A stretch of DNA of 26,750 nucleotides from a virus, in the IMG/VR virus record IMGVR_UViG_3300030328_002954, positions 1 through 26,750 of that record, one strand, 5' to 3'. This document shows positions 1-25,269 of this stretch, piece after piece; the stretch's first letter is position 1; each line of letters opens with the position of its first letter. Under the pieces are notes generated by a model. The model saw only the letters and a program-made list of their open reading frames with translations, was not told the DNA's origin and made no database searches. The position numbers were made by a program, and so were the translations under genes.

Positions 1-3000
1 TCAGCTACAGAACCATCAAGATAAAAGTACGTTGCTGTACCGCCACTACCATCGTCGCATTGGAAGATAATGTCCTTATTATCCGTGCCATTGGAGATAT
101 AAAGATCCCCCGTTTGGTTAACAATCTTTGTATCCGTACCATTGTGGGTCATGTAGAAATCCGCAGTACCGTCATTTCCAAGCGTCAAGTAAGTGTTATC
201 TGCGAACTCTAAAGCGTCAGCACTCTCGTCCCAAAGTAAATACTTACCACTCGTAGCTCCGAAAAACTTTACGTCATGCCCTGTATCATCCACTCCAACT
301 GTAATCCCTTGGTTAAAGTGCCATGAGTTAGTTGAATTAGTCCAGTTGATTGTATAATCACTAGCACCTTTTAAAGTAAATCCACCACCATCAGCCGTTG
401 TATCAGATGGGCTAGATACATTACCTATGATAATGTTCTTGTCCTCAACCGTCAGATTTGCCGTGTCTATAGTAGTCGTTGTGCCACTTACTGTTAGGTT
501 GCCGTTAACTGTAACGTCGTTGAATGTTTGGTTCGTACTACCTGAAACTGTTAGGTCACCAGTTATCGTTACACCAGCAGCAGTTGTATGTAACTTAGTA
601 GACCCGTTGTGCATTAAAAAACAAGAACCACCATCGGTAAACTGTGCTAGTCCATTACCATCAGTATCTTGGAAGTAAATAGCAGGGCCGTTTGTTTGGA
701 GATATAAACCTCCGTCACCATCGTCTTTTATAAAACTACTACCTCCACCGTGATAGATTTCTAGATCGCCACTATTTCCAAAAGTAGCTTTTATAGTATC
801 TGCATGTTTAGTGTCTTTATCGAATTGCGTCATTCCTGCCGAACCATCGATCCTTATATATTGAGTCATTCCACCAGAACCATCATCAGACTGGAAGACT
901 ATGTCTTTGTCAGTAGCATCATTACGGATATATAAGTCTCCCGTATAGTTACTAATATAACTATCTGAACTAGTATGTTTAATTCTAAGATCTCTACTGT
1001 CACCAAAAGCAAGTTCACTAAGGTCAGGGAAGACCGTGAAAGGGTTACCAGAAGATGCAGAACCATCTAAATAGAAGTAGGTTTCGTTGCCACCACTGCC
1101 ATCATCACATGAAAAAATTATATCTTTATCATCGGCAGAATTTTTAATGATTAAATCTCCTGTGTAGTTGTTTATAGTCGAATCAGTCCCATCATGTGAA
1201 ATTCTTAAATCAAAATCACCTCCTATTTGTAATATTGAATTATCAGGAAACACTGTAATAGGATTACCACTTGAAGCTGACCCATCTAAGTAGAAATAGG
1301 TTTCATTCCCACCTGACCCATCGTCGCTTCGGAAAACAATATCTTTATCATCAGCGTTGTTGGTTATGTATAGGTTACCAGTAGAATTATTTATATAAGT
1401 ATGACTGCCATCATGTACTAAACCAAAATCAGCACCAGTTCCAAAACGTAAATGCGCATTATCTGGGAAAACTGTGTTAGGCTCTCCACTTGACAATGAA
1501 CCATCTAAGTAGAAATAAGTTTCTACTCCACCACTACCATCGTCTGATTGAAATATAATATCCTTGTCGTCTGTGCTTTGTCTTATGTAAAGGTCACCGT
1601 TGTTTTCCTGAATGTATGAATCAGTGCCATTGTTGATTATCTGTAAATTGCCACTGTTACCAAACCTTAATGATGAGTCATTAGGGAATAATGTTGTTGG
1701 GTAACCTGCCCCTCCGAAACTTCCATCTAATCTAAAGTAAGTTGCAACACTGCCATCACCGTAATCACTTTGAAAAATTATATCTTTATCATCTGCATGG
1801 TTTTTAATGTATAAATCACCATTAGTATTCTCAAATATAGTATCAGTACCAGTGTGGTATAATGATGCATCATTACCATTTCCGAAACGTGCAATAACAT
1901 TGTCTCCAAATCTAATGTGCTTAGAGGCAACTGTATGTGCTAACCCACCGTCAAAACGGAAATATTCTGCCGTTCCGCCAGAGCCATCATCACAATAAAA
2001 CCTTATATCACCATCATTAGTGTTTTGTGTGATGTCAATATCCCCACCATTGTTTTGTATACTAGCCCCTAGACCAGTGTGCCTTATGAGTAAGTTTCCA
2101 GCATCTCCAAAACCTAAGAAAGAATTGTTTGGGAAGATTGTATATGGATCTCCTGTAGATTTAGATCCATCTAAAAAGAAATAGGTTTCTTCTCCACCCG
2201 ACCCATTATCACTTTGAAATATAATATCTTTATCGTCTGCTCTGTTAACGATTCGTAAATCTCCAGTGAAGTTTCTAATTTCAGACTCAGCTCCTGAGTG
2301 ATATATAAGTAGGTCGCCGTCATCACCAAAACGAATAGATGCGTTGTCTGGAACTATTGTCTGCGGAAATCCAGACGCAGACGCACCACCATCTAAACGG
2401 AAGTATGTAGCTAAACCTCCGCTACCGTCATCCGATTGGAAAATTATGTCTTTATCGTCTGCGGAATTATAAAATACCAAATCACCTGTGGAAGATGATA
2501 AATATGAATTACTACCATCGTGCCATAGACCCATGTCCCCGCCTGTACCTAATAGTATCTTACTTTGGTCAGGGAATCTTGTGTAGACGTTAGTCCCGTC
2601 AGCTAAAGATCCATCTAAATAGAAATAGGTTTCTACACCACCAGAACCATCATCGCAGCGGAAAACTATGTCATGGTCATTGCCCCCATTTTCAATTATT
2701 AGGTTTCCAGCGTTTTGAGTATTAGAAACATAAGAATGAGTCCCATCATGATAAAGTTGTAAATCGTCACTTGCACCAAGCCTTACTTTTTGGTTATCCC
2801 CTAAATCTATATGTGAGCCTATTGTAGTAGCCCCACCGCCTGTGCCAGCAAATTCTACTGAGCCAGATGTACTAAGTGTCATTCTAGTACCAGCGTTAGT
2901 TTTTAATTGCAACTCATGGTTTGAGTCTGTGCCAATTACACCTCTTGCTGCTTGAGCTTGTAAATTAATTAAAGCACCTGATGCTCTTTCGATTTCAACC

Positions 3001-3926
3001 TCTCCATTCCCTGTTGATTTAACATGAAGTTGAGCGTTTACTGTGCTACCTGTTCCGATTCCTAAATGACCACTACTGTCTAGCCTCATTCTTTCCGCTG
3101 TACCTGTTACATCAATGACAAAGTTGCCATCACCAAATGTAAGGTTATCGGAAGAGTTCATTGAGACAGCAGATATAACTCCACCACCTGCTGTTTCTGT
3201 TAAGAAGGATCTTGTGTTATCTACACGAACATCTCCACCTTCAAGCTGAAGCATTGCTTGCCCTGCTGTTCCACCAATCGTTAAACGGCCGTCGGAATGA
3301 AGGCGCAATCTTTCAGTACCACCTGCGGTAAATGCTAAAGTGTTGGCCGTCGGTCGGAATATTCCTGTGTCGGTATCTAAATTAAATCTAACACTTGGAG
3401 ATGAAGCAGTACCGTCACCATGATAAACAGTGTTAACTTTTAAATTACCTAACGTACCACTAAAAACTTCTGAGCTGTTTGTAGCCGCAGTTAAAAATGT
3501 AAAAGCACTTTCAGAATCGTCGTAACCAAAGAAACCTACCTTTGGATTAGAACCATCATGGTAACGGAACTCAATACCTCTATCTTTATTGTCATCAGAT
3601 GAAGGAGCCGTGTCACCACCTATGGTGAATACAGGGTCGTCAATCGTGACCACCGTGCTGTTAAAAGAAGTCGTGGTTCCTGTTACATCCAAATCCCCCG
3701 CTATGATCAGCTTATCCGCACTCTCATCCCACTGTAAATACTTACCACTTGTAGCTCCAAAGAACTTTACGTCGTGACCTAAATCATTGACCCCTACAGT
3801 TAAAGTACCTCCTAATTGTAGGTTGCCTCCGATAGTACCACCCGCTAAAAGATTATACGAGCCATCATTGAGGCTCGCAGATATAGTGTTCGTTACTTCG
3901 GTTATTTTAACTACTTGGTCAGCCAT
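1..3926 (-). CDS. Long repetitive tail fibre / receptor-binding-type protein, partial (C-terminus beyond window)
   Basis: The frame is open from an ATG at 3926 to the left edge, giving at least 1308 residues without a stop. Residues 1-368 are a leader with phage-fibre style Gly/Thr/Ser-rich beta sequence. From about residue 369 a unit of 72-75 residues recurs, with core motifs like LYHDGSxSYI, GDLxIxNxADDKDIIFQSDDGSGG and TYFxLDGS. I count ten recognisable LDGS-type units and one degenerate unit (near 670). A module with core HDVKFFGATSGKYL occurs twice, near residue 60 and again near residue 1220, bracketing most of the array. This repeat style is typical of marine phage fibre proteins. The product probably forms a trimeric, extended fibre for host attachment. 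Its ATG overlaps the upstream stop (TAATG), so it is translationally coupled. Sure it is a fibre-type structural protein; the exact receptor role is inferred. Confidence 0.85.
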   Translation of the reverse strand, partial: MADQVVKITEVTNTISASLNDGSYNLLAGGTIGGNLQLGGTLTVGVNDLGHDVKFFGATSGKYLQWDESADKLIIAGDLDVTGTTTSFNSTVVTIDDPVFTIGGDTAPSSDDNKDRGIEFRYHDGSNPKVGFFGYDDSESAFTFLTAATNSSEVFSGTLGNLKVNTVYHGDGTASSPSVRFNLDTDTGIFRPTANTLAFTAGGTERLRLHSDGRLTIGGTAGQAMLQLEGGDVRVDNTRSFLTETAGGGVISAVSMNSSDNLTFGDGNFVIDVTGTAERMRLDSSGHLGIGTGSTVNAQLHVKSTGNGEVEIERASGALINLQAQAARGVIGTDSNHELQLKTNAGTRMTLSTSGSVEFAGTGGGATTIGSHIDLGDNQKVRLGASDDLQLYHDGTHSYVSNTQNAGNLIIENGGNDHDIVFRCDDGSGGVETYFYLDGSLADGTNVYTRFPDQSKILLGTGGDMGLWHDGSNSYLSSSTGDLVFYNSADDKDIIFQSDDGSGGLATYFRLDGGASASGFPQTIVPDNASIRFGDDGDLLIYHSGAESEIRNFTGDLRIVNRADDKDIIFQSDNGSGGEETYFFLDGSKSTGDPYTIFPNNSFLGFGDAGNLLIRHTGLGASIQNNGGDIDITQNTNDGDIRFYCDDGSGGTAEYFRFDGGLAHTVASKHIRFGDNVIARFGNGNDASLYHTGTDTIFENTNGDLYIKNHADDKDIIFQSDYGDGSVATYFRLDGSFGGAGYPTTLFPNDSSLRFGNSGNLQIINNGTDSYIQENNGDLYIRQSTDDKDIIFQSDDGSGGVETYFYLDGSLSSGEPNTVFPDNAHLRFGTGADFGLVHDGSHTYINNSTGNLYITNNADDKDIVFRSDDGSGGNETYFYLDGSASSGNPITVFPDNSILQIGGDFDLRISHDGTDSTINNYTGDLIIKNSADDKDIIFSCDDGSGGNETYFYLDGSASSGNPFTVFPDLSELAFGDSRDLRIKHTSSDSYISNYTGDLYIRNDATDKDIVFQSDDGSGGMTQYIRIDGSAGMTQFDKDTKHADTIKATFGNSGDLEIYHGGGSSFIKDDGDGGLYLQTNGPAIYFQDTDGNGLAQFTDGGSCFLMHNGSTKLHTTAAGVTITGDLTVSGSTNQTFNDVTVNGNLTVSGTTTTIDTANLTVEDKNIIIGNVSSPSDTTADGGGFTLKGASDYTINWTNSTNSWHFNQGITVGVDDTGHDVKFFGATSGKYLLWDESADALEFADNTYLTLGNDGTADFYMTHNGTDTKIVNQTGDLYISNGTDNKDIIFQCDDGSGGTATYFYLDGSVA

Positions 3927-5906: not shown

Positions 5907-6596
5907 CTAATGCCAATTACGAGCTTTTAACTGAGAATTACATATATTACTCATTCCAGCGCACTGCCCTGCTAACCAAATAGGGGGGCAGTACACATTC
6001 CATTCTTGTCTCCTGTGTGCGACTTCTAACTGATGATCAAAATGGTGGCTTTTTTTATTAAAATAATCACTAGCCTGATTAATGTGGGAGTAAAATTTAC
6101 TGTAAGCCTTACTATTTAAGGCGTAAGCATGGCCTCTGTTAACACTTACTCCCCTTTTTACACAATTAATTTTAGTGTCCAGGGGAGCAATCCTGTGTTG
6201 ACCCCCTAAATATATTTGATCCCAGTCTTTAGGGACATTACTCATAAATTGGTTTAACAAATCAAGAGGGCTTTGAATGAACTCGACATCGTCTTCTAGG
6301 ATTAATATAGAATTTAAACCTTCCCCTAGAGTAGTTTTCTCCATTATAACCCCCTCAACCACATTACTATGCGATCTAAAGCACCCCCAAGCAGCATTAC
6401 CACTCTTAAAATAAGACGGGCAGGAGGTTTCGTCTCCTATAATGGCTGAGTAAACAGTGACTTCTGACCTATCGGCTAAACCTTCAAGCTCAATATGATC
6501 AAAAAAATTATTTAATCTGTCTGGCCTATCATACCTGTTAATAACAAAAATACGGTCAAACCAATCTGTAAGCGTTTTATTGCCCAAAGAATCCAC
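5907..6596 (-). CDS. Family 25-type glycosyltransferase (LPS / collagen-galactosyltransferase fold)
   Basis: A 229-residue protein with the layout of GT25 enzymes. Residues 15-28 read RIFVINRYDRPDRL, the nucleotide-sugar strand-loop with its DR pair. Residues 68-81 (AAWGCFRSHSNVVE) match the usual GxxGCxxSH motif. Residues 98-104 (LILEDDV) hold the acidic EDD metal-binding motif. WDQIYLGG near 125 and HAYALNSKAYSKF near 156 match later conserved blocks. It should transfer a sugar from a nucleotide sugar to an acceptor that cannot be read from sequence. The start is GTG, 6 bp after the upstream stop; no ATG lies early enough to keep the first strand. It sits between structural genes, which suggests glycosylation of a virion protein, though modification of host surface glycan is possible. 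Confidence 0.8.
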   Translation of the reverse strand: MDSLGNKTLTDWFDRIFVINRYDRPDRLNNFFDHIELEGLADRSEVTVYSAIIGDETSCPSYFKSGNAAWGCFRSHSNVVEGVIMEKTTLGEGLNSILILEDDVEFIQSPLDLLNQFMSNVPKDWDQIYLGGQHRIAPLDTKINCVKRGVSVNRGHAYALNSKAYSKFYSHINQASDYFNKKSHHFDHQLEVAHRRQEWNVYCPPIWLAGQCAGMSNICNSQLKARNWH

Positions 6597-7814: not shown

Positions 7815-9308
7815 TTAACTTGGATCTGCTGCGTAAGTGGGGTCTTGTACGGTTATGTTAGGGGCGTGTACTGTTATTTTTGTCCTTACATAACCACCTC
7901 TAAAAGGTTGTTGAGAATCAGAAACAACTAAACTTGCGGGCCAATCAGTATAGTTAGTTCTACCGTAGTTAAATTGAACTACTTCGTTGTTGTATATAGG
8001 GTGCTCAGTTCCTGTGCTAACACCTAAAAATAAAGCTTTATGCAAAGTCTGCTTAACATTTGTCTTAATCAGTGGAGTTACAAAGTTAATTGGAAGTGGC
8101 TGCATAGGTTGTAGATCTGTAAGCTCTGAAGTACTCCATTGTTTCTTGCGCCAGATCTTTTCTCTAATTGTTTTAGTAGGCCCAGTCCAAGTATCCCTCT
8201 TAAATGTCGGAAAAACAACAGTGTCACTACCTCCTTTACGCCTTTTCCAAGAGTACCCTATAATACCATCTTGATTACCATCCGTGGGATCTAGGTCGTT
8301 AAGAACAGCAGGCCAAGTATATGTTTCATTTGTCTGATACTTCTCTAGAACTACTTCCCCAGGATTACTCTTGTCAGTAACATTAGTAGTGTCTACAGGA
8401 GGCACTACTTGTCTTTCAAAAAGAACATACCAATTATCTGACAACTGTTTTCCCTCACGTTGAATGCCTAGTTCATCTGTGCCCCAAAAATTAGAAGTTC
8501 CAATAGGAGTAATTCCTGTAGCATAAGTAAGATCAGGATCTCTAAAAGCTGTTAAGGCATTAACAGCTCCTGTAGTTGATACCGTCGTCTCAGCATCATC
8601 AGTCGTCGCAAAAACAGTAGTAGCTTTTATTGTTTCCGTTTTATAAAACAAAGTTTCTTTATCTAAAAGAGCTCCTTTAGAAGGATCTGTAGCAGTTCCT
8701 CTATCCTCTGTAGAATTAGAAGTGTCCTCATGAAGTGTTATGTCATAAGCAAAGGAATCATCAGTTCTTATATTCCTAACAGGAATCTTTTTAATAAAAA
8801 CTTGTTGCTCAATAACATATAAAGAGTCTAAAGTTTCGTCGCCTGCCCTTACCTGTCTCCTTTCAAATAAAATATACTCAGGGTCAAAACCAACCGCATT
8901 TGTCGTAAAAGGATCGGCCTCTCTTGAGGGCATACTAGAACTAATTGCAGGAGTAGCTTCATCATAAGAAGTCCTTAAAGTTACATAAGTTCTGATAACA
9001 GTGTCATACCTAGACCCTGCTCCAGCAGATCTAAACTCCCAGTTATATTCATCTTGATCTGCTCTATCTACAACATAATACCATAACTGAAACTGGCCTT
9101 GGTCTTTGTCCCCATTTTTAATTAGCGATAATTTATGGTTGGGAAAATTAGCAGTGTCTGGGTGCGCTGTGCCATAAGATGTGTTATCAGCTGCATCAGC
9201 AGACCCTAAATTTTTACTCGCATCAACTAACTCAACTACCACCAAATCCGCTACTTTAGGAGTAGCGAATTCTATAATTCTTTGTCTCCTATTAGAGGAT
9301 AAAGCCAT
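7815..9308 (-). CDS. Putative large virion structural protein
   Basis: A 497-residue protein with no signal peptide or membrane helix. It is rich in Thr, Asp, Tyr and Trp with many short beta-prone stretches (QFQLWYYVVDRADQDEYNWEF, FIKKIPVRNI, NWYVLFERQVVPP) and ends in a strand-rich segment (GGYVRTKITVHAP). Phage tail or appendage proteins of this kind are common between capsid and fibre genes, and the family is not recognised. Its stop and the next start are 3 bp apart, and its start follows the upstream stop by 4 bp, so the block is one operon. It may form part of the tail tube, nozzle or an appendage; this rests on position alone. Confidence 0.6.
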   Translation of the reverse strand: MALSSNRRQRIIEFATPKVADLVVVELVDASKNLGSADAADNTSYGTAHPDTANFPNHKLSLIKNGDKDQGQFQLWYYVVDRADQDEYNWEFRSAGAGSRYDTVIRTYVTLRTSYDEATPAISSSMPSREADPFTTNAVGFDPEYILFERRQVRAGDETLDSLYVIEQQVFIKKIPVRNIRTDDSFAYDITLHEDTSNSTEDRGTATDPSKGALLDKETLFYKTETIKATTVFATTDDAETTVSTTGAVNALTAFRDPDLTYATGITPIGTSNFWGTDELGIQREGKQLSDNWYVLFERQVVPPVDTTNVTDKSNPGEVVLEKYQTNETYTWPAVLNDLDPTDGNQDGIIGYSWKRRKGGSDTVVFPTFKRDTWTGPTKTIREKIWRKKQWSTSELTDLQPMQPLPINFVTPLIKTNVKQTLHKALFLGVSTGTEHPIYNNEVVQFNYGRTNYTDWPASLVVSDSQQPFRGGYVRTKITVHAPNITVQDPTYAADPS

Positions 9309-16210: not shown

Positions 16211-18463
16211 TTAAATCTTTTCTCGCAACTTCATGACGTTCTCCGCATCACGAATAGCTTGCTCCTGCTCAAACTTGGCCTGCTTAATCTGCATGTCAAG
16301 TTCTGCTTTCTGTTGAGCCATCTGCATTTTCATCTGGTGCTCCTGAACTTTAGCTGACATCTCGACAGAACCCTCTTGCTGAGGTTGGCCTTCAGGAGCA
16401 CCTTGAGCACCTTGAGCTTCTTGCTGAGCCTGCATGGCATCACGCTCCATCTTCTGAACTTGCTTGCTTGTATTATTAATCATCTCCTCTGCAAATTGTA
16501 GCACTTGCTTAGTTTGCCCCAATAAACCCTCCATAGTAGGGTCATTTGCCACTTGCTGCGCTGTCTCCGATATATGCTGGTAAAATGCCTGCAACGCTGG
16601 TAACGCCTGCACAGGGTCAGCAACACCCATGTTCAACTGCTCAATCATCTGATTCAACTCTGGAACATGAACCTGCAAATGCACACCATGTAGCTCGTTA
16701 CTCTCAACAGGTACAGGTTGCCCTGCCATCAATTCTTTATTCTCTAAGAAGGCTATCTTGTTGTCCACTGTCGGCCTAGCACCCTCCTGCTGAGGTGTAT
16801 ACCTATCAGCTAAATCATGACCCACCCGTGTCGATACAATGTCACGAGTCAAATTACGCCTGCCCACATCATCAAATGATCCACTTATTCCCTGCAACTC
16901 CCTCAATGCAACAAGCCTATTCGCATATGAACCATTACCTATCGACCTCACTGCCTTCGTCCTCTCAGTATCTAACGTGCTTATAAACCCACGGTCAATG
17001 CCTCGTGCCTCACAGCGCATGTAAAAATCTTTCAACAATGGATCATTAGTCTTTCCTACAACAATCCTACGCACAACCTCTCGAAGTAACCTGTTCCATG
17101 AAGCATAAAACAGGTTCAATGAAGCACCCGATAAGCGAGTAGTGACATCCATGTCTGCAACAACCTGCATCTGGTTTCTATATGGTGAGCTCTGCTCAGA
17201 GCCATAAGTACTTACTGTATCAGTGTTTCTCGCTAACTGATTGCCTATGTCATTTAACGCAGGCTGAACAGAATTACTTAAATTTGGGACAGCCTTCTCT
17301 ACCAAGTTGACACCTGGAGATAGTATAGCGTAAGCTCCGTAATACGTGAAACCTAATTCGTCTAAAGACCTTTGGGAATCAGGTTGTATCATTACAGCAG
17401 AGGCTAACATTGCTCCATCTACCATTTGGCACCTCAACCGATTACTCGTTTGAATATGATTAAATATGCGATGCCCTAATCCTCTGACTGAATGATACGT
17501 TCCGTTGGAACCAACTCCATACGTAAACATTACAAAAGCTTGCTCAGGCTTTTCATAGCGAGAGAGCTTCTTATACATAAAATCTTTAGGAGATTTCTCA
17601 GCACAAATATAATGAGAAACAGTGCCATCTAACTCTCGCACCCAAAAATGCAAAACTGATATAGTTGGATTCTGATAGCCCTCGTAAATATCGTTGTTCT
17701 TAAGTTCTTTCTGTAAAGTCTCCCAATCGTCGTAATGCCTATCTGAGCGACCATCACTCGTAGCATTTTTTATTAAAACTCTTTTTACTTCTTCAACATC
17801 CCAACCAACTTTTTCGGCAGCTTCTTTGTTTCGGATATACCCAAACAACTCGTGCAAGTGGTATTCCCTCCGACCTACAGCAACATCAATTAGATTCTCC
17901 GAAGAAGGAGTCTGCCTTGGAATAAGCACGTCAGCAAAACCCCCAACCCTAAATTTCCATTCATCGGGTGTGTCAAAATAAGCTAGGCTTACCCCATGTT
18001 TAATGAACGTAGTGCAAAGACGTAAGTAGTTGCTGTGGAATTCAGGCCATGTCCTTAGTAAATGAGTTACCTCTTCTGCTAAAATATCTTCTTTAGCTTT
18101 TATCTCAGAGGGCTCCCCTTGTGTTCCCCGAACTTCAACTAACCGCTCAAGGGAAGAATACAAATCAACGTAAGAAGATAATGAAATATCTAACAACCTC
18201 TGAGCCTCCCCAAAGTTTAAGTTGGTCTTAAGACCCTGACCACTAGTGTTTAACTGAGTTTGACTATAAGGACTCGCCCCATCAAACATAGCGTCAACCC
18301 TTGATCGATTATAAGAAGATCCTTCATCCGCTTTTCGTAATCCTTCAAAAATTGCACATGCGCTTTTTACATTTTTTATTCGGCTCTCTAGAGGCTTACC
18401 TTTTTCATCAAAAGTTTCTAGTCCATCTAAAGAGTCTAAATTGTTGCTACTGTATTCTTCCAT
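16211..18463 (-). CDS. Portal-like protein
   Basis: A 750-residue protein, the largest complete gene in the window, placed first in the head-assembly block. Residues 1-300 are mixed alpha/beta (FIKHGVSLAYFDTPDEWKFRVGGFADVLIPRQ). A helical stretch around 340-385 (GLGHRIFNHIQTSNRLRCQMVDGAMLASAVMIQP) and the following strand region look like the stem and wing of large portals. The last 100 residues are Gln-, Met- and Lys-rich coiled coil (KVQEHQMKMQMAQQKAELDMQIKQAKFEQEQ), like the long helical barrel that some podovirus portals project into the head. A ring of twelve would form the DNA gate. The terminase that docks on it is not in the window. Call based on size, order and composition, not on a motif search. 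Confidence 0.75.
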   Translation of the reverse strand: MEEYSSNNLDSLDGLETFDEKGKPLESRIKNVKSACAIFEGLRKADEGSSYNRSRVDAMFDGASPYSQTQLNTSGQGLKTNLNFGEAQRLLDISLSSYVDLYSSLERLVEVRGTQGEPSEIKAKEDILAEEVTHLLRTWPEFHSNYLRLCTTFIKHGVSLAYFDTPDEWKFRVGGFADVLIPRQTPSSENLIDVAVGRREYHLHELFGYIRNKEAAEKVGWDVEEVKRVLIKNATSDGRSDRHYDDWETLQKELKNNDIYEGYQNPTISVLHFWVRELDGTVSHYICAEKSPKDFMYKKLSRYEKPEQAFVMFTYGVGSNGTYHSVRGLGHRIFNHIQTSNRLRCQMVDGAMLASAVMIQPDSQRSLDELGFTYYGAYAILSPGVNLVEKAVPNLSNSVQPALNDIGNQLARNTDTVSTYGSEQSSPYRNQMQVVADMDVTTRLSGASLNLFYASWNRLLREVVRRIVVGKTNDPLLKDFYMRCEARGIDRGFISTLDTERTKAVRSIGNGSYANRLVALRELQGISGSFDDVGRRNLTRDIVSTRVGHDLADRYTPQQEGARPTVDNKIAFLENKELMAGQPVPVESNELHGVHLQVHVPELNQMIEQLNMGVADPVQALPALQAFYQHISETAQQVANDPTMEGLLGQTKQVLQFAEEMINNTSKQVQKMERDAMQAQQEAQGAQGAPEGQPQQEGSVEMSAKVQEHQMKMQMAQQKAELDMQIKQAKFEQEQAIRDAENVMKLREKI

Positions 18464-18508: not shown

Positions 18509-19009
18509 TCAGCCCCACGCACTAGCAACAATATCTTTAACTCTCTTCATGCGCTTACGCCCATCACTAAGATAAAGCGTAACATATGAACTCTTGGGCT
18601 TCATAGTTGTATTTAAGAGGTAACACCTCCCAGCATTCCTCCCTCTCTTAGGCGGGTCAATACAATAAATAGCTCCATAAGGAGTAACTACATAACGAGG
18701 AAAATCAGGGACAGGGCGTACATCATAGTTCTTCTCAATGTCTTTCTGGTTTAAGACATATTCCTTCTCCCCAAAGATCGCCCTAGCTAACCGCTCAGAA
18801 TCAAAAGAGACTTTCTTCCCAGCCCTAGTGTAGACTTGAGCAAACCACTTGGTCCCTCTTTTCTGCAAAGCAATGCGCTTACCTTTGCGATAAACAAAAC
18901 CGTTCTTATCAATCTCGTATGAGTGTGTATCTGGAATATGCTTTCTGTGGGGCTCTTTCAGAAAAGCTTCCTCAAATCTCTGAGCGGTTGTAATTGTCTG
19001 AGCGGTCAT
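18509..19009 (-). CDS. Two-domain NUMOD4-like DNA-binding protein lacking an HNH nuclease domain
   Basis: A 166-residue basic protein with two similar halves. Residues 31-80 read YEIDKNGFVY ... GKKVSF ... LARAIFG. Residues 102-166 read FPRYVVTPYGAIYCI ... VTLYLSDGRKR ... KDIVASAWG. Both fit the NUMOD4-like pattern (Y-x-V/I ... G-x-V/I ... GK ... LV/VA-x-AF/W) found before the HNH motif of phage homing endonucleases. The protein ends exactly where the HNH catalytic part would begin, so it may be a truncated homing nuclease or a DNA-binding regulator. Copies of an ACCGCTCAGA-type motif lie at its own start, inside the gene and in the gap behind it, which would suit autoregulation. It lies just upstream of the portal gene. 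Confidence 0.65.
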   Translation of the reverse strand: MTAQTITTAQRFEEAFLKEPHRKHIPDTHSYEIDKNGFVYRKGKRIALQKRGTKWFAQVYTRAGKKVSFDSERLARAIFGEKEYVLNQKDIEKNYDVRPVPDFPRYVVTPYGAIYCIDPPKRGRNAGRCYLLNTTMKPKSSYVTLYLSDGRKRMKRVKDIVASAWG

Positions 19010-19067
19010 GGTACTTTAGTAAATTCTTGACAAGGTAGCAGAGAAAAGAACTTAAGTCCACCCCATA

Positions 19068-19097
19068 TATAAAACTTTCTTTAACTTACTGATGCAA
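19068..19097 (-). promoter_or_regulatory. Candidate sigma70-type promoter before the NUMOD4-like gene
   Basis: On the minus strand TTGCAT (19097-19092) is followed after 18 bp by TTTATA (19073-19068), about 60 bp upstream of the ATG at 19009. The match is moderate. The -35 box overlaps the stem at 19096-19121. Confidence 0.35.
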
Positions 19098-19121
19098 TTG
19101 TTTCTACATACAGAAACAATT
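19096..19121. promoter_or_regulatory. 10-bp inverted repeat, possible operator or hairpin
   Basis: AATTGTTTCT (19096-19105) and AGAAACAATT (19112-19121) are perfect inverted repeats around ACATAC. No T-run follows on either strand, so a terminator is unlikely. It overlaps the candidate -35 box for the NUMOD4-like gene. Confidence 0.5.
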
Positions 19122-19251
19122 ACATTTCATAGTTGGAGAAACTTTTCACTCTAACTGTACATGCTAAAATCATTTCACTTATGTTTTCCTTATAAAATAG
19201 TTTTTGATTTGTTATAAACGAGCGGTTTTTGTAAAATGAAGCACCGACCGC

Positions 19252-19506
19252 TCAGAGATTTATAGACCGCTCAGAGATCTCTTGTTTGCGCTTGTTTTGC
19301 CTTTGTTCTTTAATTTTTTCTTTGTTTTTAATATAGTATTTCTTATTGTATTCTTTTTGTCTGAGCGACCAGTCAGGGTCTTCTGCTCTTTTCAATTCCT
19401 TTTTACGAATGATCCGTTCTTTGTTTTTATTATAATACTCACGTTGATACTTGAGTCTTTTTTCCTTATTATTTACGTAGTATTCTTGTTTTTTCGCATC
19501 AGCCAT
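19252..19506 (-). CDS. Small Lys-rich protein resembling the N-terminal arm of HNH endonucleases
   Basis: An 84-residue protein from ATG at 19506 (MADAKKQEYYVNNKEKRLKY) with repeats of the form YYxxNKEKxxxxxxEYYxKNKERI and KKYYIKNKEKIKEQRQ. This KEK-rich, tyrosine-bearing helical arm commonly precedes the catalytic part of phage HNH endonucleases, but no HNH residues follow. It may be a truncated remnant or a small basic DNA- or RNA-binding protein. An upstream TTG could extend it by 12 codons, but that TTG is the -35 box of a strong promoter, so I chose the ATG. The ATG lies very close to the predicted transcription start. Confidence 0.5.
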   Translation of the reverse strand: MADAKKQEYYVNNKEKRLKYQREYYNKNKERIIRKKELKRAEDPDWSLRQKEYNKKYYIKNKEKIKEQRQNKRKQEISERSINL

Positions 19507-19513
19507 ACTTACG

Positions 19514-19542
19514 ATATAATCAAAGAAAATGGATTTTGTCAA
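19514..19542 (-). promoter_or_regulatory. Strong sigma70-type promoter driving the minus-strand arm
   Basis: Minus-strand TTGACA (19542-19537), a 17-bp spacer and TTATAT (19519-19514) are a near-consensus match. The start would fall within a few bases of the ATG at 19506, giving a nearly leaderless mRNA. Confidence 0.65.
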
Positions 19543-19624
19543 ATTTTTTCATACACTCACATATATACTACGTCAGCTCCTGGAAAAAAGTTGCTATGGT
19601 AGGGGTGGGGTGTTCCTGGTCTCT

Positions 19625-19872
19625 CATTCTCAACGACTTATGCAACATTCTACATGATTCATGCTAAAAAGTGCAGTGAGCTATGCCACAGTATAAGAAG
19701 AAAAGGGTCATTTTTACTGCAATCCTATTAACTAGTTCATTCTTAATGACTTATGAGCCATGAACCATGAGTCATGTTACATAAGTCATTGATAATGAAT
19801 GAGTTAAGTATGGTTGAATTAGGGGGAAAACTATTTTCAATTTATAACTCGTTGATTATAAATGAGTTAAAA
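19625..19872. promoter_or_regulatory. Divergent control region with repeated and inverted CATTCTTAATGACTTATG-like motifs
   Basis: The gap 19543-19916 has no gene. CATTCTCAACGACTTATG at 19625-19642 and CATTCTTAATGACTTATG at 19738-19755 match at 16 of 18 positions. The inverse occurs at 19780-19802 and, weaker, at 19849-19872. The pair 19745-19755 and 19780-19790 is a perfect 11-bp inverted repeat (AATGACTTATG). Such arrays suit a repressor operator or replication-origin iterons between two divergent arms. Confidence 0.55.
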
Positions 19873-19881
19873 GAATAATAT
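19852..19881 (+). promoter_or_regulatory. Candidate promoter for the plus-strand arm and RNA
   Basis: TTGATT (19852-19857), an 18-bp spacer and TAATAT (19876-19881). It lies about 35 bp before the first RNA hairpin. It is a moderate match in AT-rich DNA and overlaps the repeat motif at 19849-19872. Confidence 0.35.
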
Positions 19882-19916
19882 AAGAAAAGTGATAAAATAA
19901 TATAAAAAAGACTTGA

Positions 19917-20689
19917 ACATATGAAAATATGTAGTAGAGTGATTGTGTTGTCAGAATTAAGACTCTACACCACCGAGAAGAAATTTTGAATAGTATCGGA
20001 GAGAGTCAAAATTCGCTAAGTATTAGCATGACAATTTAGTAGTAGTATTTTGGCATACCATGCATTGCATACCATGCCATAGGCGCAGTCTATGCGTGCC
20101 GAGCTTCGGCTCTTAAGATCATAGACTAGGTATCTAGTTATACTGAATGACATCACCAGTGGATAGCTATTGCTATGCTTCGGCAGGCTCTACTTGTAGG
20201 GTTGTACCACCTGATATACTGCAATGAACAGGGCTAAGGCTTGCCCCGATGCGGATCGTCGGGCTAGGTGAGCTACGCCTTGACAACAGACGATGGGGTC
20301 GCAGTGTCATCCAGACATTAGTCCTATCATCACTGGATTGAACCGAGCATTACAGGCACTCGGCTTAGAGCATCATTGCGTAGTGTAAAACAAGATCGTA
20401 TTTTATCTTGGAATAAAGGGTGACCTATTGGAAACGGTAGGGTAACCAAAATCCCCTTGGCGGATGGGGGGATGCCTATTGTATACCACGCTTTAGGTTT
20501 GAATAGTGGGGTGAGGAACAACCCGCCTTCGGGTAGGGGTCAACGAGTCTATGGCTCGGTATCGTAGTAGTGTGGCAGGTGCTTTGCACTGGCAGTCATG
20601 TGAAAATTCGCCTACCCCTTGAGAATACAAATGTTAACTCGGTAGCACACCAACCTAGGATTCCTGGGTTGGTGTGTGTACAGGTACAC
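19917..20689 (+). ncRNA. Candidate large structured noncoding RNA, upstream part
   Basis: About 770 nt without a convincing gene but dense in perfect stems; GC content is visibly higher than in the flanks. Helices seen by eye: 19917-19922/19927-19932 with a GAAA loop; 19934-19940/19962-19968; a pseudoknot of 19973-19976/19996-19999 and 19982-19988/20007-20013; 20052-20056/20074-20078 with inner 20060-20063/20067-20070; 20087-20094/20120-20127 enclosing 20101-20104/20109-20112 with a TTCG loop; 20309-20314/20333-20338; 20343-20347/20359-20363; 20391-20396/20405-20410; 20424-20430/20435-20441 with a GAAA loop; 20451-20456/20468-20473; 20521-20525/20530-20534; 20535-20540/20614-20619; and a 14-bp stem 20646-20659/20663-20676. 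Size, tetraloops and long-range pairs recall giant phage RNAs such as GOLLD and ROOL. Family membership and ends are unknown. Confidence 0.65.
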
Positions 20690-20737
20690 TCGGCAATCGG
20701 TCGGGGATATCTGGTCACATACCAACTAACATATATC

Positions 20738-21334
20738 ATGGAAAAGAAAAAGAACGTAGTCGCAGAGATTAAATCTTCAATTCAGAACAACCCAGTGCTG
20801 GCATATTATGTCGGTCTTGGATCACTGAAATCTAAGCCATCTCTCAAGCACGTGGAGGCTATTCTTCGCAAACTTGGCAAGGGGGATGAAGATGCTAAGG
20901 TGATCCGTCAAGATTGTCACAATGTGCGCATCGGGCAATTGTCTGGATCTCTTATGAAAGGTAATGTTGGTAGTGTAAGGGGCTTTCGCTCTGGCACTAT
21001 CATGTCCTCTCAGAGAGGAACTAAAGTCGGGGATATAATCGCAACTGCGATGCACTTACTAACTGAGCAGGCTTACATCCACATTAAAGAGGGTGTTGAG
21101 CCAACTTATCTAATGGTTCCCGATGGGGACACATTCAAGTATCAGTGGGAGGCGATGTGTTCAGTACTGAAGAGATTCGGTTTCACTGGATTTGATCGCA
21201 AATATGATGCTGTGCACGAGTTTTTCACCAAGCAATTGGAGGTCAATAAATGCCTTGAGCTTGTTGAAGAACCTAAGATTACCGAGAACTCTTTTGAGTT
21301 CGAGACTGCTGAAGCTGAATTAGCTGAAGCGTAA
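20738..21334 (+). CDS. Unrecognised 198-residue protein encoded between two structured RNA regions
   Basis: The chosen start is ATG at 20738 (MEKKKNVVAEIKSSIQNNPVLAYYVGLG); an upstream GTG at 20570 would run through the RNA stems and is rejected. The protein is soluble, basic in the first two thirds and acidic at the end (EFETAEAELAEA). It looks mixed alpha/beta. A Gly/Ser/Arg-rich stretch near residues 66-100 (RIGQLSGSLMKGNVGSVRGFRSGTIMSSQRG) could bind nucleic acid. No Shine-Dalgarno sequence precedes the ATG. The stretch of 18 bp at 20929-20946 in this gene recurs exactly in the RNA at 21378-21395. Position suggests a partner or processing factor for the RNA, or an ORF carried within it. 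I do not recognise a family. Confidence 0.7.
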   Translation: MEKKKNVVAEIKSSIQNNPVLAYYVGLGSLKSKPSLKHVEAILRKLGKGDEDAKVIRQDCHNVRIGQLSGSLMKGNVGSVRGFRSGTIMSSQRGTKVGDIIATAMHLLTEQAYIHIKEGVEPTYLMVPDGDTFKYQWEAMCSVLKRFGFTGFDRKYDAVHEFFTKQLEVNKCLELVEEPKITENSFEFETAEAELAEA

Positions 21335-21377
21335 GGTTAACGGTAGACCCTAGGAAACTAGGGCTACCATATTACCT

Positions 21378-21395
21378 CATCGGGCAATTGTCTGG
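21378..21395 (+). repeat. 18-bp exact repeat of a coding segment, in an RNA hairpin loop
   Basis: CATCGGGCAATTGTCTGG is identical to 20929-20946 inside the 198-residue gene. It fills the apical loop of the stem 21369-21376/21399-21406. Confidence 0.8.
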
Positions 21396-21545
21396 TGGGG
21401 TAATATGGTGGACGGATAAAAGAGTGAAGTGCACCCTCTTCCGAATGCGTTTGCTTTGAGTAAAGGTGGCTTGATCACCACTGGAGAACTCAATGGGTAG
21501 TAGATGTAACAGTCTATTATTAGAAGTTAGCGGGGGTGACTGGCT

Positions 21546-21594
21546 AACGGGCATTCCTCCTGGACATGAGCTTAAACTGTCCTTAACAATTTCA
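21546..21594 (+). repeat. Duplicated RNA hairpin module, copy 1
   Basis: AACGG, a short spacer, CTCCT, stem GGAC...GTCC with an ATGAG...TAAACT loop, then TTAACAATTTCA at 21583-21594. See copy 2 at 21919-21970. Confidence 0.75.
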
Positions 21595-21918
21595 GACCAA
21601 TCCACGTTGGCTTGTCACCAACTAGTATGGACGGATACCATATGATGAACTCAAGTAACTATGAGAGCAAATATTCTGTGGCAATGCCCGCCTGTACCAG
21701 GCGTAACTCTCTCCGCAGTCTTAGAACTGCTCAGAGTCATTCAGAGTGCTCGACTTGGATGAGGAGTATGAACAAAGTTGTGTGAGGTGCGAGACTTGCA
21801 CACTTTGATTACATAAGGGAGAGAGTGGTACAATAATAAACAAACAAACCAATCTGGTAGATAAAAGGTATCAGTCTTCCAGTCTTACTGTGATCCGATA
21901 GACTGAGATCACATGAGT

Positions 21919-21970
21919 AAACGGATACCAACTCCTGAGCATGAGTGATAAACTGCTCTTAACAATTTCA
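21919..21970 (+). repeat. Duplicated RNA hairpin module, copy 2
   Basis: AACGG, spacer, CTCCT, stem GAGC...GCTC with an ATGAG...TAAACT loop, then TTAACAATTTCA. Two stem positions differ from copy 1 on each arm and pairing is kept, which is direct evidence for RNA structure. Confidence 0.75.
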
Positions 21971-22161
21971 AATGGTACTCGATGTACCCTCATTAGAGGA
22001 CGGGCATACGATAACAACTACGCAGGAACGCAGTAACAACTGAGAGGACGCTCTATATAAGGTGTGCTGTTAATCAATACTGGTGGTGGAGGTTCAAGAC
22101 CCTCAGAGTATCACATTAATTTCAACATGTGACTTGAGTCATGAGTCATGTGCTATGGTCT

Positions 22162-22335
22162 ATGAGTAATAAATACTATGACAAGCCTAAAATAGTAGGT
22201 CACTTAGGCAACAGTAATATTTACACTCTTCTAGTTGAAGATGTAAATGAACCCGTAACATCTGACGAAGGTATCAATACCCCTTTCAAAGATATAAACT
22301 TAACCCAAATTAATAATGATAAGCAAAGTTCTTAA
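22162..22335 (+). CDS. Small hypothetical protein after the RNA region
   Basis: A 57-residue frame starting MSNKYYDKPKIVGHLGNSNIYTLLVEDV. An in-frame ATG at 22141 would add seven residues (MSHVLWS) that overlap a CATGAGTCATGT repeat also seen at 19766-19777, so I prefer the inner start. The composition is ordinary for a phage protein, but there is no Shine-Dalgarno sequence and no recognised motif. It overlaps the next gene by 20 bp. Real but low-certainty. Confidence 0.4.
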   Translation: MSNKYYDKPKIVGHLGNSNIYTLLVEDVNEPVTSDEGINTPFKDINLTQINNDKQSS

Positions 22336-22630
22336 CTGGCGTAAGCGAATGATCAAAGATCATAAGCGCAAAAAAACTATAATAAATAATCTATGTGATG
22401 AGGTGCATGAATTGAAGTGGATCGTAGACACTAAAGAGAAATCAATTAGACGACGGGAGTTGGAGCTTGATGGGCTAGTGGGCACATTAAATAAGATGAG
22501 TGAGAGATTAGAGAAGTCTACAGATATAACGAGTGTGCAAGAAAAGAAGATAAGAGATTTAATAAGTGAGCTTGATAGATCACACAAGATCATAAAGAAA
22601 TTACAGGAGCAAGTGCCCCTGTGTGACTAA
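22316..22630 (+). CDS. Coiled-coil hypothetical protein
   Basis: A 104-residue basic and acidic helical protein. The N-terminal 25 residues are strongly basic (NWRKRMIKDHKRKKTIINNL). The remainder has heptad-like spacing of Leu, Ile and Val (ELELDGLVGTLNKMSERLEKS, KIRDLISELDRSHKIIKKLQEQ), suggesting a dimeric or oligomeric coiled coil. A basic tip with a long coil could bind nucleic acid or a membrane surface. No family is recognised. It is followed by a hairpin at 22637-22658. Confidence 0.6.
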   Translation: MISKVLNWRKRMIKDHKRKKTIINNLCDEVHELKWIVDTKEKSIRRRELELDGLVGTLNKMSERLEKSTDITSVQEKKIRDLISELDRSHKIIKKLQEQVPLCD

Positions 22631-22636
22631 AGATTT

Positions 22637-22658
22637 GGTTCAGTAGATACGCTGAACC
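22637..22658 (+). terminator. Hairpin before the DUF932 gene, terminator or attenuator
   Basis: GGTTCAG (22637-22643) and CTGAACC (22652-22658) pair perfectly, followed by TTTAACC. An alternative stem TTTGGTT (22634-22640) with AACCAAA (22662-22668) uses the same bases, so two exclusive structures are possible. The T-run is short. Confidence 0.5.
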
Positions 22659-22686
22659 TTTAACCAAAACATACCGAAAGCATATT

Positions 22687-23832
22687 ATGTTAACATTACA
22701 AAACGAAGTAGAAGCTAAACCAGCAGCACATCACGACATCCAAGATGTTATTGATCAAATGCAGAGAACACGCAAGCATGACTTTGCGTGCCCTAGAAAT
22801 AAGCTAAGCCTAAGATGGCGTAGTAAAGAAGATGCTCCAACTGATAGGTGGGCAGGTTATTCTGTCACTCTAGATGGTGGTGACAAGGGCTATGAGTTCA
22901 CTGCTAATGATCACTTCATTGGTCAGATGTCCTCATACTGGACTGGCATGAAGCCATACGGCAGGATGTTGAATGAGACTGGACAGAATGAACTGTTGGT
23001 TCACAACATCAACAAGCAGTTGAGTCGTACTGAGGGAGGTGCCCTCATTAGAACTACGGCAACCCCTACTGATGGAGGTTCTTACAATACTGCGAGGGCT
23101 TTCTTGTCAGACAGGTACAAGATAGTTGATGACAATGACGTGTTCGATGTGGCTCTACCAATTATTGGTGAGCACAGTGACACGTTCCGTTCACTTGGTG
23201 GTAGACGTACTGATACGAATACACACACCAAGTTTATAACTCGTGAGCCTATCGCTCAGATTGGTAAGCGTGAAATGTTTGCTGGCTTTGAGCTATCGAA
23301 CTCAGAAGTAGGGCTTGGCTCTGCATCTTTCAAGGCTATCTTCTTTGATAACTTCTGTGAGAATGGATGCACGTTTGGCAACATCAAGTTGTTCCAGGCA
23401 TCCTTTGTTCACAAAGGTGCAAAGCTACAGACTGACTTCGGCCCTGTATTCGGGGATGAGTTCAAGCTAGCAGAGACAGCTGCAGTTAGATCATGTATTG
23501 CAGAGGCAACCCGTAGAGCACTTGATACCAAGTACCACGATCAGATTGCTGAAATCATAGAGCGTGGTCACAAGCGTAAGGTAACTGGCGATGTGGCTAC
23601 TGTTCTTAAAGAGGTTGGCAAGCGTGTCGGGTTGACTGAGACAGAGCGTGAGCAGTCTCTCCTTATGATGGATGAGAGTGAAGCTCATGCATATGGTGTG
23701 CAAGCTGCCATTACTAAACTTGCACAAGATGCTAGCAGTTACACTAGACGTAGCAAGCTAGAAGAAGCAGGGGGTAAGGTGCTTGAGCTTACCGACAGTG
23801 CATGGAATGCAGTAGCATCCTTAGCGGCATAA
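22687..23832 (+). CDS. DUF932 phage/plasmid-like protein
   Basis: A 381-residue protein. Residues 136-145 (ARAFLSDRYK) and 205-212 (NSEVGLGS), followed by FDNFCENGCTF near 221-230, match the conserved blocks of the DUF932 family, which is common in phages and plasmids and whose role is not established. The N-terminus is helical, the core is mixed alpha/beta, and the C-terminal 120 residues are helical. The length fits the family. ATG at 22687 follows GAAAG nine bases upstream, a weak ribosome site. The gene has a clear terminator behind it and a hairpin before it, so it may be expressed as its own unit. This is one of the best-supported calls on the plus arm. Confidence 0.85.
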   Translation: MLTLQNEVEAKPAAHHDIQDVIDQMQRTRKHDFACPRNKLSLRWRSKEDAPTDRWAGYSVTLDGGDKGYEFTANDHFIGQMSSYWTGMKPYGRMLNETGQNELLVHNINKQLSRTEGGALIRTTATPTDGGSYNTARAFLSDRYKIVDDNDVFDVALPIIGEHSDTFRSLGGRRTDTNTHTKFITREPIAQIGKREMFAGFELSNSEVGLGSASFKAIFFDNFCENGCTFGNIKLFQASFVHKGAKLQTDFGPVFGDEFKLAETAAVRSCIAEATRRALDTKYHDQIAEIIERGHKRKVTGDVATVLKEVGKRVGLTETEREQSLLMMDESEAHAYGVQAAITKLAQDASSYTRRSKLEEAGGKVLELTDSAWNAVASLAA

Positions 23833-23906: not shown

Positions 23907-24275
23907 ATGACATTAACATTCAATATAGATGACCTAAGAAACTTAATAGAGTTTGAGAAGAAACATATGGAAACTGGGGAACCAGTTAACGTGCGTATGG
24001 TTGGTGATGAAGGTGTATACTTCATGCCGAAGCGTTTCAGACGTGCAGGTGAGACGGCAAGATCACCCATAGTGTATGCAGAAGAATGCAACCCTAACAC
24101 TATGGAGTTCGAGGATTGGTGGCAGAATAAGAGAAGCTCATGGGGTAGTGATGATGGTGGTACCAACGTACCGATCAGAGCACTCAGCCATGTGATTGAT
24201 AACCCTAAAGCTGAAGCACTTAGTGTGACCTTCCTCGAAGATAAGATTGAGTTCTTCGCATTCGATAAACAATAA
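23907..24275 (+). CDS. DUF3085-like protein
   Basis: A 122-residue protein. The segments VGDEGVYFM (about 32-40), IVYAEECNP (about 55-63), FEDWW (68-72) and WGSDDGG (79-85) match the layout of the DUF3085 family known from plasmids and phages, whose function is unknown. The start is ATG at 23907, after AGAAGAAAG. A GTG at 23877 would lie in the terminator stem and is rejected. The gene opens the downstream operon and is 14 bp from the next gene. Confidence 0.7.
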   Translation: MTLTFNIDDLRNLIEFEKKHMETGEPVNVRMVGDEGVYFMPKRFRRAGETARSPIVYAEECNPNTMEFEDWWQNKRSSWGSDDGGTNVPIRALSHVIDNPKAEALSVTFLEDKIEFFAFDKQ

Positions 24276-24289
24276 ACAGAAAGGATAAC

Positions 24290-25060
24290 ATGCCTAATTG
24301 GGTAACAAATAAACTAATAATAAAGCCAATGCAAAGTTCAACCATTCTTGAAAAGAATGTGTTTGATGCACCTGCTATGGCTGGAGACAGACTGGGTAGC
24401 TTGCTAAAGCATTTCAGTTTTGAAAAGATCTTACCGATACCACCACATATCGATGAGTCAGAGGAACGTGATTGGAAGATAGATAACTGGGATACTAAAT
24501 GGGATGCCGTCGACCCGACAAATGATATGCAAGCCAACAGAAACAAAGACGGCACACTTAACTTGTTAAGTTCAGAAGGGTACTTCCTCACTGCCTGGTC
24601 ACCACCATATGCTGTAATCAAGAAGTTACAGGAGATGTTTCCTCAAGTACATATCCGTTTGGATTATGCAGAGGAAGCCTTGCAGTTTGCTGGTGTCATG
24701 GATAGTCATGGTGATGATGAAGAGTTCACTACCATGTATGAAGTCGGGGAGTATGCTAGACGTTTAGGAGTTATCTCTGGACCTCAGTTCTCAGAGATAA
24801 AGAAGGAATATAAAAAGCAAGAAGACCCAACGATACAGTTGAAAGACGTGCTCTGGAATTGTATGGGGTTGGATTACTTAGACTCTGCGATTGAGTTGCT
24901 CAAGTGTAGGATAGGTGATCTTGAAGATAGAACTCCAGAAGAGGATTACGTAGGAGCAAAGGAGGAACTAGTAGAGTTGAACAAAACATATGACCTGCTG
25001 TGGGACCTATCAGCTGGTAAGAAATGGGTATTAAGTAAAGACGAAGCTAAAAAGTTATGA
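24290..25060 (+). CDS. Api92-like protein with ferredoxin-fold domain (DUF1281-like)
   Basis: A 256-residue protein starting MPNWVTNKLIIKP, as in this family. KILPIPP at about 46-52, NWDTKWDAVD at 66-75, and FLTAWSPPYAVI near 99-110 match the conserved PxP, WGTKW-type and TAWSPP motifs; here the Gly of WGTKW is Asp. The N-terminal 140 residues are the ferredoxin-like domain, and the C-terminal part is helical and looks phage-specific. Members occur in plasmids and phages with no settled function. It follows a clear AAAGG ribosome site. RNKDGTLN within it recurs in the gene at 26357-26614. Its stop overlaps the next start by 4 bp. Confidence 0.8.
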   Translation: MPNWVTNKLIIKPMQSSTILEKNVFDAPAMAGDRLGSLLKHFSFEKILPIPPHIDESEERDWKIDNWDTKWDAVDPTNDMQANRNKDGTLNLLSSEGYFLTAWSPPYAVIKKLQEMFPQVHIRLDYAEEALQFAGVMDSHGDDEEFTTMYEVGEYARRLGVISGPQFSEIKKEYKKQEDPTIQLKDVLWNCMGLDYLDSAIELLKCRIGDLEDRTPEEDYVGAKEELVELNKTYDLLWDLSAGKKWVLSKDEAKKL

Positions 25061-25269
25061 GTATAAACACAAAAGAAAAACAAAAGACGCAGTGCATAAC
25101 ACTCAATGAGATCCACTACGATCTCAATGATATGTATGATGATGTAAGGTGCTTGCAAGTAGTTCCTGCTGAGAGACATAAGAGACTAATGATCCTGGAG
25201 CAGATGGAACTGGTCATGAATAGACTTGCTAAGTATGAATATGAAAAAGCTAAACCAAAGTTCTTATGA
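25057..25269 (+). CDS. Small hypothetical protein in the ATGA-linked chain
   Basis: A 70-residue, helical, charged protein (MSINTKEKQKTQCITLNEIHYDLNDMYDDVRCL at the start). No motif is recognised. It begins inside the stop of the upstream gene (ATGA) and ends inside the next start. Two cysteines (13 and 32) are not in a metal-binding spacing. Small early proteins like this often act on the host, but nothing in the sequence proves it. Confidence 0.6.
   Translation: MSINTKEKQKTQCITLNEIHYDLNDMYDDVRCLQVVPAERHKRLMILEQMELVMNRLAKYEYEKAKPKFL

Follow-up and report, generated by a model that had tools for sequence, protein, structure and literature searches.

The question raised by this locus is whether long stretches of phage DNA that hold no gene can encode a large structured RNA, and whether the gene lying between them belongs to it. 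The sequence studied, here called the window, is the whole 26,750-base virus record IMGVR_UViG_3300030328_002954, which comes from an uncultured virus of marine bacteria represented by environmental DNA only. In its region 19917-22111 two gene-free stretches (19917-20737 and 21335-22111) surround a single gene for a protein of 198 amino acids. An earlier note, written from the letters of the sequence, proposed that they form a cassette, possibly a new large RNA family of the size and look of GOLLD and ROOL, together with a dedicated protein. To our knowledge phages have so far yielded very few large structured RNAs, and what the best-known among them do has yet to be settled.

The locus and its coding content

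The coordinates given in the earlier note hold. There is one good gene in the region, P0001 (20738..21334, + strand; ATG at 20738, stop at 21334), and its hexamer coding score of +52 is strong under a model trained on this phage group. The same model calls zero genes in the upstream noncoding stretch (19917..20737, 821 nt, + strand) and zero in the downstream one (21335..22111, 777 nt, + strand). The GC content of the region was rightly described as high: it is 46-49%, whereas the adjoining control region has 32% and the window for the most part about 39-40%. The nearby DUF932 gene, at 46%, is however just as rich. The control region is divergent and AT-rich (19543..19916, assigned to neither strand), with both ATGASTCATGA-like repeats and an inverted repeat of 36 nt (19728-19763 / 19772-19807); in its left part it resembles that of three related loci, L006, L004 and L003.

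Elsewhere in the window, an open frame of at least 1308 amino acids (3-3926, - strand, running off the end) has many repeats of a unit with DDKDIIFQSDDGSGG and is apparently a tail or fibre protein, and a glycosyltransferase family 25-like gene lies among the structural genes (5907-6596, - strand).

Search for known RNA families

No Rfam family matched the whole window at gathering scores, and in 19000-22700, searched at E-values up to 5, there were only chance matches to eukaryotic microRNA-type families. The covariance model of GOLLD gave no match in either of these searches or in the relatives, the ROOL model gave none in the window or in the relatives searched, and the models of OLE, HEARO and group I and II introns gave none in the window. 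Nothing relevant, GOLLD and ROOL included, was found with Rfam in 15 relatives, and a blastn comparison of the region with 50,697 phage records returned no match. Membership in GOLLD or ROOL is thus unsupported.

A large covarying RNA in related phages

Relatives were gathered via the portal protein (16211-18463, - strand), which has no match among the 50,697 phage records and led to 80 related IMG/VR loci at 57-77% identity. At least 600 nt without a called gene were present within the first 3 kb right of the control region in 47 of the 62 loci with enough sequence, a count to be read as a maximum, since some small genes escape the gene model. Relatives are very unlike one another at this locus, and when the noncoding sequence of the window was compared with the related loci by blastn, nothing matched beyond the control region. 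Beside the control region of L020 (about 8250-8400, - strand) a gene-free stretch holds tandem GGACAGGATCAGCACC units.

Two sisters, L003 and L004, have about 880 nt of noncoding sequence in common, placed right of a divergent control region as in the window. Their consensus fold, derived from the same two sequences that were used for the pair counts, covers an alignment of 942 columns with 242 pairs, and every scored cell is paired. Both sides have changed in 17 of the 242 pairs, compared with 0-1 when the partners are slid by 1-3 columns. Two sequences make a small sample, but the number of compensated changes and the slid control leave little room for chance, and from the comparison of the two sisters the base pairing of their RNA is shown to be under selection.

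The 3' end of this RNA also occurs in L006 with different stems, as two hairpins with an invariant CTTTCGACAG...CTGGTGAAAG around the second. The exact sequence form of the 3' domain was found in IMG/VR in L003, L004 and L006 only, and it was absent from a scan of the GTDB genomes. Inside the large RNA, the segments L003:3574-3798 and L004:5663-5908 (- strand) hold four hairpins with different stems and a common AA/GG internal loop. The tips of these hairpins are of a UGA-NNNG-UCA type with compensated tip changes between the phages, and hairpins whose tip is of a similar kind, UGA-UACG-UCA, occur in L006.

The 3' domain in the upstream stretch

A covariance model of the 3' domain, R1, was built from L003, L004 and L006 only, with the window left out. 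When the speed filters were off it matched the window at 20630-20720 on the + strand with 26.1 bits (E 4.2e-4 over the window), a moderate score and a rough E-value from a model that rests on three sequences; the next best match scored 13.5 bits, and eleven unrelated or more distant loci reached at most 18.9 bits under the same settings. With the filters on, in a search of 66 sources, the match in the window was not reported. The match ends 18 nt before the ATG of the 198-aa gene, and in the sisters the domain has the corresponding position and strand and a like distance to the start codon.

The domain in the window (20630..20720, + strand) reads AACTCGGTAG, then hairpin 1, then hairpin 2. Hairpin 1 (20646..20676, + strand) has 15-nt arms with one G-U, and hairpin 2 (20675..20719, + strand) is closed by TGTG/CACA, followed by a 2x2 loop TA/GT, the stem CAGGTA/TATCTG, an internal loop and CTCGGC/GTCGGG. 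The closing stem, the NA/GU internal loop and the CAG...CUG core are thereby retained in the window, though built from other pairs. When hairpin 2 is compared between L003, L004, L006 and the window, 95.8% of the cells are paired, and 8 of the 18 pairs have changed on both sides, against 1-3 with slid partners. A hand-written descriptor matched only these four sites in 2.94 Mb searched on both strands, which shows its specificity and not an independent discovery, as it was written with all four sites in view. The features that mark the 3' domain of the new RNA, i.e. hairpin 1, the closing stem, the NA/GU loop and the CAG...CUG of hairpin 2, placed just before the next gene, are found in the window at a moderate score. 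Homology of this domain with that of L003, L004 and L006 is thus supported.

The other roughly 700 nt of the upstream stretch gave no alignment above shuffles to L003, L004 or L006, and a model of the central domain, R2, had no match in the window, L006 or L017. The central and 5' domains of the L003/L004 RNA were not found in L006, and as they are missing there too they may vary within the family. With the R1 match and the retained 3' domain on one side and an unalignable remainder on the other, we call the upstream stretch probably a divergent member of the large RNA of L003, L004 and L006, matched at its 3' end only. The large structured RNA and the new RNA family that the earlier note proposed are in this way borne out for the upstream stretch by the covarying RNA of the sisters and the R1 match, with moderate confidence where the window itself is concerned.

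The 198-aa protein and its neighbours

The protein encoded between the two stretches is an orphan. The homologue search that had been suggested for it was run and found no relative in viral contigs, genome contigs, phages, plasmids, Pfam, PHROGs, NCBIfam, PADLOC or PDB, and a single-sequence structure prediction gave a mean pLDDT of 37. The gene that follows the RNA differs, L003, L004 and L006 carrying another one than the window, and this lack of conservation speaks against a cis-regulator of one gene. Before the RNA these three phages have a conserved gene of 120-132 amino acids (E 3e-7 for L003 against L006), which the window does not have, and a profile of this small gene showed no relation to the 198-aa protein. 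A second small-gene family accompanies a differently built stretch in L017, L023, L035 and L053. Since the 198-aa protein has no relatives and the following gene varies, the idea of a protein dedicated to the RNA is unsupported.

A recurrent hairpin motif in the downstream stretch

The downstream stretch contains a repeat in two copies. Copy 1 (21557..21594, + strand) reads CTCCT GGACA TGAGCTTAAAC TGTCC and runs into the boxA-like TGTCCTTAACAATTTCA, and copy 2 (21932..21970, + strand) reads CTCCT GAGCA TGAGTGATAAAC TGCTC and runs into the boxA-like TGCTCTTAACAATTTCA. The only differences in the stems are two compensated pairs (GGACA/TGTCC vs GAGCA/TGCTC), which we read as a direct sign of selection on pairing in this stretch. 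Searches with a model and a descriptor found the same motif, CUCCU-[NNNCA]-WGAG-n-UAAAC-[UGNNN], once in L030, twice in L031 and four times in L039, always in a gene-free early stretch. Together with the window this makes nine copies in four phages with four different stems, all of them paired. Reversed and complemented controls yielded no copy, nor did the remainder of 49 whole phage records or the same records read backward. The motif stems in the four phages are shown to be under selection for base pairing, and CUC and GAG, both invariant, might pair as a pseudoknot.

L039 also has a tRNA (6389-6525, - strand; Rfam 45.7 bits) with an apparent hairpin-forming insertion of about 70 nt in its anticodon arm, which sits between copies of the recurrent motif. 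At L039:4027-4209 (- strand) there is a match to the manA RNA family that is below threshold (37.1 bits vs a gathering score of 55.2).

The main rival to a large RNA with its own role takes its start here. The stretches could be cis-acting leader or intercistronic elements that bring about antitermination or act against Rho, as nut, put and rrn boxA do, and the RNA as such would then do nothing of its own. We regard this as possible, if somewhat unlikely, and it could be true together with the large-RNA reading. Rho tends to terminate long RNA that is not translated, an effect that boxA offsets in rRNA operons (PMC4807359, PMC5725501), and the putRNA of HK022 is an established example of a nascent RNA that brings about antitermination in early phage transcripts (PMC9378689). 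The first position in the early operon and the boxA-like sequence after both copies of the motif fit this reading. The rrn-type consensus GYTCTTTAANA (PMC5725501) is however not found exactly, the closest sequence being GCTCTT-AACA, one T short; this consensus is the gamma-proteobacterial one. The boxA-like TGCTCTTAACAATTT is one deletion from the rrn-type TGCTCTTTAACAATTT, and a comparably close sequence occurs at one other place in 83 loci and the window. Moreover, the motif copies in L030, L031 and L039 have no boxA after the hairpin, and 800-900 nt with dozens of conserved helices far exceed what an antitermination site needs. As the consensus is missed by one base and the copies of other phages are without a boxA, we treat the boxA-like sequence as a lead and not as a finding.

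Folding of the early transcript

The two stretches had been described as full of perfect stems, but the genes of the window itself have perfect hairpins (stem of at least 6) at no lower density: there are 2.4-2.6 per kb in the stretches, 3.6 in the structural genes and 5.5 in other early genes. Counting them did not single out the region and was given up as a sign of it. Measured against dinucleotide shuffles, folding of the whole stretches on the + strand gave z -4.4 (upstream) and -4.8 (downstream), and the 198-aa ORF over its whole length gave z -5.1; the values for a small number of structural-gene controls were between -1.9 and +1.2. In a scan with 500-nt windows the structure is strongest for those that start at 20667-21167 and take in the ORF and its borders (z -5.7 to -8.3), and windows wholly inside the noncoding flanks are modest (z -0.5 to -2.5). 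The ORF is also more structured than 60 of 60 synonymous-codon shuffles (z -5.6).

A long imperfect hairpin in the coding sequence (20780..20948, + strand) has a pairing probability of about 0.9-0.98. Directly 3' of the gene stands a 22-bp hairpin (21364..21411, + strand), which has 4 G-U pairs on the + strand and is therefore complete only as + strand RNA. An exact 18-nt repeat, CATCGGGCAATTGTCTGG, is present inside the ORF (20929..20946, + strand) and at the tip of the 22-bp hairpin (21378..21395, + strand), and a 17-base piece of it had two matches in a sequence scan. An early form of a 22-nt repeat was also scanned against IMG/VR and was rejected, its 15 matches all being chance or coding.

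These values bring up another explanation, namely that there is no discrete noncoding RNA and that the whole early transcript, genes included, is kept folded, e.g. against nucleases. We find this quite improbable. The excess structure of the ORF speaks for it, as does that of the DUF932-like gene (22687-23832 of the window), which exceeds its synonymous shuffles with z -3.4 and -4.4 in its two halves, and the early half of L005 (1-9400) is full of short perfect hairpins even in genes, 168 vs 14.2 expected from dinucleotide shuffles. On the other hand, the other early genes of the window are unstructured, both in the windows starting 24167-25167 and, for g24290, in the synonymous-shuffle test. 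A general folding pressure would not demand specific helices, such as those kept by compensated changes in L003 and L004, or a defined sequence of a 3' domain, such as is kept in three to four phages. Strong structure inside the ORF and the DUF932 gene means that structure alone is no mark of a separate RNA, and because these two genes show the excess as well, a pressure towards folding in early transcripts accounts for some of the signal, although not for the conserved 3' domain.

Of the stretches seen in the group, L021:7427-8963 (- strand) is the most structured; it runs for about 1.5 kb with no called gene, is followed by a 215-aa gene and has z -15.1 on the early strand vs -7.6 on the other.

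Proposed organisation of the early unit

The stretches might also be decayed genes or filler that remained as genes came and went at the border of the early region, which agrees with the lack of a sequence match for most of the length and with the strong variation of the locus between relatives, but it is very improbable given the covariation in the sisters, the R1 match and a motif repeated with compensated stems in four phages. A mobile element that harbours a gene, be it a group I or II intron or of another kind, which the RNA - gene - RNA layout of about 2.2 kb resembles, can practically be dismissed, as no intron model matched even at permissive thresholds, no endonuclease or reverse transcriptase domain was found in the 198-aa protein, no gene is interrupted, and the matched 3' domain precedes other genes in other phages.

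That a large structured RNA is present at the locus is well supported. To the fuller explanation, in which the early unit opens with a long untranslated folded RNA, the upstream stretch belongs to a large RNA family and the 198-aa gene is a neighbour and not a partner, we give an even chance. The right-hand (early) transcription unit would begin with this highly folded RNA, whose transcription would start in the divergent control region, proceed rightward and open the early transcript. The upstream stretch, of about 800 nt, would represent a family that occupies this position in related marine phages and is defined by a 3' domain of two hairpins, with only a few nucleotides between its end and the next gene. 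This domain may mark the border between the noncoding RNA and the translated part, and is possibly a processing site. The RNA would be released near the 3' domain and then work in trans as a standalone structural RNA, by analogy with what is proposed for GOLLD and ROOL. The 198-aa gene would be a fast-changing neighbour translated from the same transcript, and the downstream stretch a second untranslated part with its two copies of the small hairpin motif. That the two stretches and the gene form one unit, a cassette as first suggested, is unproven, and the stretches have different relatives.

A wider hypothesis, which we hold to be fairly unlikely, is that the lineage keeps a locus at the head of the early operon for large RNAs of fast turnover, each type with its own small gene, as in an arms race with the host. 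One protein family would then go with the RNA of L003, L004 and L006 and another with the stretch of L017, L023, L035 and L053, and the RNAs could for example be decoys or scaffolds against defence.

Comparison with known systems

The phage lineage that carries the RNA has no cultured or annotated relative, and the closest comparisons are with RNAs from elsewhere. GOLLD is an RNA of phages and prophages, often over 800 nt long, and marine members of it are known. It has a conserved 3' part and a variable 5' part (PMC12286853), and the present RNA is similar in this respect as well as in its size and phage home. The present RNA differs in that it fails the GOLLD covariance model, is placed at the head of the early operon and lacks the location near tRNA genes, with no tRNA in the window, L003, L004 or L006. 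ROOL is likewise a large phage RNA of a similar size range, whereas the present RNA has neither a match to its model nor a tRNA island. The likeness to rrn boxA, lambda nut and HK022 put lies in the position in the early transcript and in the boxA-like sequence that occurs twice downstream, but the boxA consensus is reached only with at least one deletion, the stretches are far longer, and the hairpin motif does without a boxA in other phages. OLE is also a large structured bacterial RNA, with protein partners; the present RNA is phage-borne and does not match the OLE model.

We file the RNA as a new family of the large phage RNA kind, with moderate confidence in the membership of the window. 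The recurrent motif, with four different and fully paired stems, is short enough for direct testing, and an RNA family of about 900 nt that can be folded by covariation and has a fixed position in the early operon offers a new comparison class for GOLLD and ROOL.
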